The notes beneath the pieces are model-generated. The model ran no database searches and had not been told where the DNA came from. It saw nothing but the letters and a program-made list of their open reading frames with translations. The translations under genes and the position numbers were made by a program. Positions 25,953 through 26,116 of a stretch of 35,024 nt of DNA are shown here, one piece after another. The stretch's first letter is position 1; the number at the start of each line of letters is the position of its first letter. This stretch comes from Acidobacteriota bacterium. Its GTDB lineage: Bacteria > Acidobacteriota > Polarisedimenticolia > Gp22-AA2. The stretch is taken from contig JAGYID010000025.1 of NCBI GenBank assembly GCA_018606725.1, positions 1-35,024 on the forward strand, read 5' to 3'.

Positions 25953-25976
25953 CGTCACCTCGATCGCGGCGCGAGC

Positions 25977-26001
25977 AAAAAAAAGCCCGCGTCATCGCGG
26001 G
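25977..26001 (-). terminator. Intrinsic terminator in the pyrR leader (attenuator)
   Basis: On the minus strand CCCGCG-ATGA-CGCGGG is followed by C and eight T residues, ending 24 bases before the pyrR ATG. A perfect stem plus U-run in front of the coding region is the mark of a regulated leader terminator. Confidence 0.9.
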
Positions 26002-26037
26002 GTCTGGGGCGCTGCGCCATCATGAGTGACCGCCTTG

Positions 26038-26055
26038 CCGGTCTCACCGGACCGG
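26038..26055 (-). promoter_or_regulatory. PyrR-binding hairpin (anti-antiterminator) in the pyr leader
   Basis: The minus strand reads CCGGTCCGGTGAGACCGG: a 6-bp stem with hexaloop CGGTGA (26044-26049). This fits the known PyrR binding loop, hexaloop CNGNGA closed by ARUC/GGYU-like pairs. It lies between the promoter and the leader terminator, as in Bacillus pyr leaders. The competing antiterminator fold could not be settled by eye. Confidence 0.85.
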
Positions 26056-26087
26056 GTCCAAAGGGTCGAACCGTGAACAGCCGGAGC

Positions 26088-26116
26088 AGGATAGCCGACC
26101 CCCACGCTCCTGTCAA
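26088..26116 (-). promoter_or_regulatory. Promoter of the pyrR-pyrB-pyrC operon
   Basis: TTGACA (26111-26116) and TATCCT (26088-26093) on the minus strand are 17 bases apart. The start near 26081 gives a leader of about 130 bases that contains the PyrR hairpin and the terminator. Confidence 0.8.

Follow-up and report, generated by a model that had tools for sequence, protein, structure and literature searches.

The leader of the pyrR-pyrB-pyrC operon in the window (the whole stretch of 35,024 nucleotides analysed here) is best explained, and probably correctly so, as a PyrR-gated, ribosome-dependent transcription attenuator with a leader peptide, similar to the system proposed for Thermus. 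The nearest named relative of the genome is an Acidobacteria group 22 MAG.

The pyrRBC operon and the elements of its leader

The first-pass annotation had described a promoter (TTGACA-17-TATCCT), a CGGTGA hairpin and a terminator with U8 in that order before pyrR, and all of these were confirmed, on the minus strand, upstream of pyrR-pyrB-pyrC. From 26116 to 25950 on that strand, the order is TTGACA, 17 nt, TATCCT, GACCCTTTGGACCCGGTC-CGGTGA-GACCGGCAAGGCGGTC, ACTCATGATGGCGCAGCGCCCCAGAC, CCCGCGATGACGCGGG-CTTTTTTTT and GCTCGCGCCGCGATCGAGGTGACGATG, the final ATG of which is the pyrR start. The features are listed below.

26111-26116, minus strand: -35 hexamer TTGACA; relatives read TTGACA or TTGAC- in this position
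26088-26093, minus strand: -10 hexamer TATCCT, 17 nt after the -35 hexamer
26028-26067, minus strand: predicted PyrR-binding hairpin, upper and lower stem
26044-26049, minus strand: hexaloop CGGUGA of the hairpin, fitting CNGNGA
26030-26036, minus strand: Shine-Dalgarno (SD)-like AAGGCGG of the leader ORF, within the 3' arm of the PyrR hairpin
25955-26023, minus strand: leader ORF of 22 codons, crossing the terminator; second ATG at 26020
25977-26001, minus strand: intrinsic terminator, stem-loop 26001-25986 and U8 25984-25977
25353-25952, minus strand: pyrR, ATG at 25952, SD GAGG at 25961-25958
24250-25347, minus strand: pyrB, aspartate carbamoyltransferase; its SD GAGG overlaps the pyrR stop (GAGGTGA)
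22953-24269, minus strand: pyrC, dihydroorotase, overlapping the pyrB end

The promoter was the sole promoter-like match within 500 bp, and shuffled sequences gave 0.0 such matches. The pyrR product was assigned to the bifunctional pyr regulator/uracil phosphoribosyltransferase family (NCBIfam NF003549, 249 bits, cut-off 138), and its best PDB matches were PyrR proteins. RALTRIAHE and a stretch of 17 residues, which we take to hold the RNA-binding residues, were identical to PyrR of B. caldolyticus. Ahead of the ATCase domain, the pyrB frame codes for about 58 additional N-terminal residues, among which A, R, P and G are abundant (25173-25347, minus strand).

The hairpin as a PyrR-type site

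The upper stem of the hairpin has 6 bp, CCGGTC/GACCGG, enclosing the CGGTGA loop. No Rfam family matched the window at its gathering score. The top Rfam match to the leader was RF00515, with 26.8 bits (gathering score 54; E = 0.074 over 4227 families), and PyrR loci from outside the Bacillota, including those of Thermus, likewise scored below this threshold. The folding energy of the leader was unremarkable (z = -0.44), and as the z-scores were not significant on either strand they were not used as evidence. When the leader segment was read on the plus strand, other Rfam matches (Hrs1, DUF3085) were obtained with E values of 1.7 or more, and these were rejected as chance-level. Because the Rfam score was weak and the folding energy ordinary, sites upstream of pyrR were gathered from related genomes.

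Seventeen such sites formed alignment A1, in which the CNG-GA positions of the loop were invariant. The two-part stem was paired in 93.5% of cells (38-61% for slid structures), with 13 double-change cells compared to 4.4 in shuffles. Compensatory changes were present at three of the six upper-stem pairs, so the hexaloop stem passed the covariance check proposed with the first-pass annotation. The lower stem was also present and supported in A1, with a bulge of GGAC in the window versus UAAU in the relatives.

A covariance model, R1, was built from acidobacterial sites and was used for the statistics in place of a simple site descriptor, which missed some sites. R1 gave 38.5 bits on the window (E = 1.7e-6), its sole significant match in the genome. 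In 11 of the 12 genomes of the window's order it found a single site, located upstream of pyrR, and it recovered the three Geobacillus pyr operon sites and the Thermus sites, none of which had been used in building the model. RF00515, at E 0.01, found just Geobacillus L117 and, weakly, L018; it did not report L009, L010, L012, L016, L021, L022, L025, L029, L075, L106, L084 or L185. As RF00515 misses these non-Bacillota PyrR sites at E 0.01, the public Rfam PyrR model looks biased to the Bacillota.

Loop, stem covariation and gene context, all from sequence comparison, place the hairpin among conserved PyrR-type sites, and there is good support for control of pyrRBC by PyrR through the leader. 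Near pyrRBC, on the plus strand (27962-31134), lies another pyrimidine cluster, pyrK-pyrD plus pyrF. No PyrR site was found there in the genome search with R1, and since this search gave no further significant site in the genome, the cluster appears not to be under a PyrR hairpin.

A terminator without a predicted antiterminator

The terminator is formed by CCCGCG-ATGA-CGCGGG at 26001-25986, followed by CTTTTTTTT. It was unique in the region (0.1 such sites in shuffles), and each of the 11 leaders of the window's order retains a strong terminator with U8.

For the antiterminator test, each leader transcript was truncated immediately ahead of the terminator 3' arm and its ensemble was folded. 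In this partial-transcript folding of the window, the probability of the terminator 5' arm pairing with the PyrR site was 0.00 and that of the site hairpin was 1.00. Among 29 Bacillota leaders the mean pairing probability was 0.58, and the site hairpin went down to 0.24, as the classical antiterminator model demands. The corresponding values for pairing and hairpin were 0.18 and 0.80 in the window's order, 0.01 and 0.77 in Thermus, and 0.08 and 0.94 in an Omnitrophota MAG. When the hairpin was forbidden in folding, the terminator of the window was still intact, and the duplex energy between hairpin and terminator arm was no better than in shuffles (z = +1.5). Three members of the order (L012, L014 and L016) showed partial antiterminator-like pairing, so the contrast holds between groups and not for every sequence.

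By this modelling, the window leader is one without a predicted antiterminator. The earlier description of a complete PyrR attenuator stands for the PyrR site and the terminator; the antiterminator, which is a defining element of the Bacillus type, was sought by folding and not found. The doubt expressed at that time about the antiterminator fold, and the remark that the mechanism may vary, were right. The leader ORF, which was missed in that first reading, would explain the missing switch.

A conserved leader ORF

The leader ORF of the window starts 20 nt past the hexaloop, and 2 nt separate its stop from the pyrR ATG. The AAGG of its SD is paired in the free hairpin. The duplex of this SD with the anti-SD was -8.1 kcal/mol in the window, with a mean of -8.0 over the leaders versus -1.6 downstream. 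The stop codon overlies the pyrR SD, and the junction of leader ORF and pyrR (GAGGTGA-cg-ATG) resembles that of pyrR and pyrB (GAGGTGA-gcgcc-ATG), which makes the leader ORF look like the operon's first cistron.

Every leader of the window's order has an ATG or GTG at +19 or +20. Conservation of the ORF was assessed on 46 acidobacterial leaders in which the site is not directly at pyrR, with the expectation taken from dinucleotide shuffles. An ATG or GTG at +15 to +20 was found in 43 of the 46 (5.6 expected), and an ORF reaching pyrR in 37 (3.5 expected). As the loci are related, these shuffle figures are not probabilities and the count of one locus per family is fairer: a start at +15 to +20 in 16 of 19 (2.4 expected) and an ORF to pyrR in 15 of 19 (1.4 expected). 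Forty-two Bacillota leaders were at chance, with 7 starts (7.2 expected) and 1 ORF to pyrR (1.8 expected), and the Thermus and Omnitrophota leaders passed in three of three cases.

The distance from the leader start to the U-tract in the window's family was 39, 51, 54, 54, 54, 54 and 47 nt; six of the seven are in the same frame, so most of the length changes are multiples of three. Three of the four members of the sister family (L016, L017 and L018) have eight-codon ORFs (MIPSPTGP, MRSNPTGP and MSLDPKTP) which stop at the base of the terminator. A ribosome terminating at such a stop would still cover the terminator 5' arm. The proline-rich end of these peptides might slow the ribosome where the terminator stem begins.

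Proposed mechanism and alternatives

In the proposed switch, when UMP or UTP is plentiful, PyrR on the hairpin would keep the leader SD closed; no ribosome would load on the leader ORF, the terminator would fold and pyrRBC would be off. When pyrimidines are low, PyrR would leave, and a ribosome trailing the polymerase along the leader ORF would cover the terminator arm so that transcription continues. The ribosome that has read the leader ORF could then restart at pyrR. PyrR binding, ribosome loading and readthrough are inferred from the layout. This mechanism is proposed because the parts are conserved, the leader SD lies in the hairpin arm, the ORF runs through the terminator to the pyrR start and no antiterminator is predicted. 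That acidobacterial relatives carry this hairpin right on the SD of pyrR also counts in favour of a PyrR-gated leader.

Several published observations bear on this model. In E. coli, a ribosome at a stop codon almost completely represses a terminator a few bases further on: termination was about 90% with the stop 28 bp upstream of the terminator and dropped below 10% with the stop at 5 bp (PMC4824070), and this supports a ribosome-masked terminator here. The same work reports that a terminator can still be efficient when it lies less than 100 bp into a coding region (PMC4824070); as the window terminator lies this close to the start of the leader ORF, this counts against the mechanism, with an uncertain strength of effect. 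PyrR of B. subtilis acts loaded with UMP, and a purine-rich bulge matters in its site (PMC7430163); set against this need, the GGAC bulge of the window, in place of the UAAU of its relatives, is a further point against. So is the partial antiterminator-like pairing in the three order members named above. Also against the model, the hairpin free of protein is stable in itself (-19.1 kcal/mol) and pairs the leader SD, so the added effect of PyrR would be a gain in stability or timing.

Four other explanations were weighed. A classical Bacillus-type attenuator, in which the 3' side of the hairpin and the 5' arm of the terminator form an antiterminator without PyrR and PyrR stabilises an anti-antiterminator, shares the hairpin family, the terminator and the order of parts with the window, and there is a short complementarity (GGUC/GACC) between hairpin and terminator base. 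It is nevertheless unlikely, since the antiterminator pairing that distinguishes the Bacillota leaders was nil in the window, the duplex was unexceptional, the terminator remained when the hairpin was forbidden, and the conserved leader ORF would be left unexplained. Little credence is likewise given to a mainly translational control, with PyrR blocking the leader ORF and, by coupling, pyrR, and with the terminator minor or just lowering basal expression. Relatives without a terminator, controlled at the pyrR SD or via a leader ORF overlapping pyrR, would fit it, as does the position of the leader stop on the pyrR SD, but the retention of a strong terminator with U8 throughout the leaders of the order argues against it.

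The passage of the leader ORF through the terminator is also the layout of E. coli pyrBI, where UTP is sensed via polymerase pausing at U-runs and there is no PyrR site. That the window leader senses UTP independently of PyrR, with such pausing setting the coupling of ribosome and polymerase, is very improbable: no U-run on which to pause occurs between the leader start and the terminator (AUGAUGGCGCAGCGCCCCAGACCCCGCG), and nothing would be left for the covarying PyrR site at the leader SD to do. The sub-threshold Rfam score and the non-significant folding z-score would agree with a hairpin that is not a PyrR site, in an ordinary leader with a constitutive terminator. This reading is hardly credible against the covariation of the stem, the single R1 site in the genome, its recurrence across the order and the recovery of the Geobacillus and Thermus sites.

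Comparison with known systems and with relatives

For the pyrR-pyrB-bbc-pyrC operon of Thermus strain ZO5, Van de Casteele et al. are said to have proposed in 1997 (reportedly J Bacteriol 179:3470) that a translating ribosome, and not an antiterminator, prevents the terminator. Two Thermus genomes (L075, MERYKGNKGKKPGGGFGLRFFLEVNRAL, and L106) have the same layout as the window leader: a PyrR hairpin, a leader ORF starting at +18 from the hexaloop that runs through the terminator and overlaps pyrR, and pyrR as the first gene of the operon. As in the window, there is no antiterminator pairing (0.01 in L106). The Thermus leaders differ in phylum and in leader peptide, and their ORF crosses the terminator whereas that of the window's sister family stops at the terminator base. 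The Omnitrophota MAG shares the layout of hairpin and leader ORF with the window.

The PyrR attenuators of Bacillus subtilis and B. caldolyticus (RF00515) resemble the window in the hexaloop hairpin, the terminator and a PyrR with the same RNA-facing stretches. The window differs from them in having no antiterminator, a leader ORF, a score below the Rfam threshold and one PyrR site where Bacillus has three. In Mycobacterium smegmatis, PyrR reportedly acts by translational repression, as Fields and Switzer are said to have described in 2007. There, as in the model for the window, PyrR acts on a ribosome-binding site, but in the window the blocked site would be that of a leader ORF crossing the terminator and not that of pyrR; the window hairpin is not over the pyrR SD and ends 75 nt before pyrR. 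With E. coli pyrBI, the model shares a leader ORF through the terminator and a ribosome that prevents termination.

The direct form does occur among the acidobacterial relatives. At 14 loci detected by R1 (L025, L026, L027, L028, L031, L032, L035, L119, L130, L137, L143, L183, L187 and L194), the pyrR SD is formed by the hairpin's own 3' arm (CAAGGAG or AAGAGG), for example CAAGGAG...ATG, and there is no terminator; our reading of these loci is direct translational repression by PyrR. At 13 further loci (L132, L133, L136, L138, L141, L144, L145, L151, L156, L162, L186, L188 and L193; families f25, f33, f37, f41, f51, f53 and f61), a leader ORF of about 27-46 codons comes after the PyrR hairpin and there is no terminator; in most of them, the stop codon of this ORF and a possible pyrR start share 1 or 4 nt. 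This arrangement suggests PyrR control through translational coupling. In many other sampled families, no recognisable PyrR site was found with the descriptor or R1. Five loci from Krumholzibacteriota and UBP1 (L084, L101, L103, L113 and L116) have PyrR sites with a loop of 5 nt, CGGGA, and their terminator arms can pair with the loop region (duplex -18 to -23 kcal/mol), which points to antiterminator-type attenuation outside the Bacillota.

Significance

A ribosome-dependent PyrR mechanism had, to our knowledge, been proposed before just for Thermus; what is new here is comparative support for it across the phylum, from many acidobacterial families. The default Bacillus antiterminator mechanism is corrected for this leader. 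The leaders compared here also point to one RNA-protein contact with at least three different outputs inside one phylum. The Acidobacteriota go unmentioned in a survey that covered 43 Rfam regulatory RNAs, PyrR among them (PMC3766115), and the Rfam PyrR model, which includes the terminator half, misses the non-Bacillota forms at its threshold. There is an even chance that the PyrR sites outside the Bacillota constitute one series built on one hairpin, from closing of the pyrR SD, through a leader ORF coupled to pyrR, to an ORF threaded through a terminator, with the Bacillota antiterminator as a separate output. If this series holds, the window would stand for a widespread and largely unannotated class of attenuators, in which an RNA-binding protein, and not a stalled ribosome, would decide whether the leader peptide is translated.
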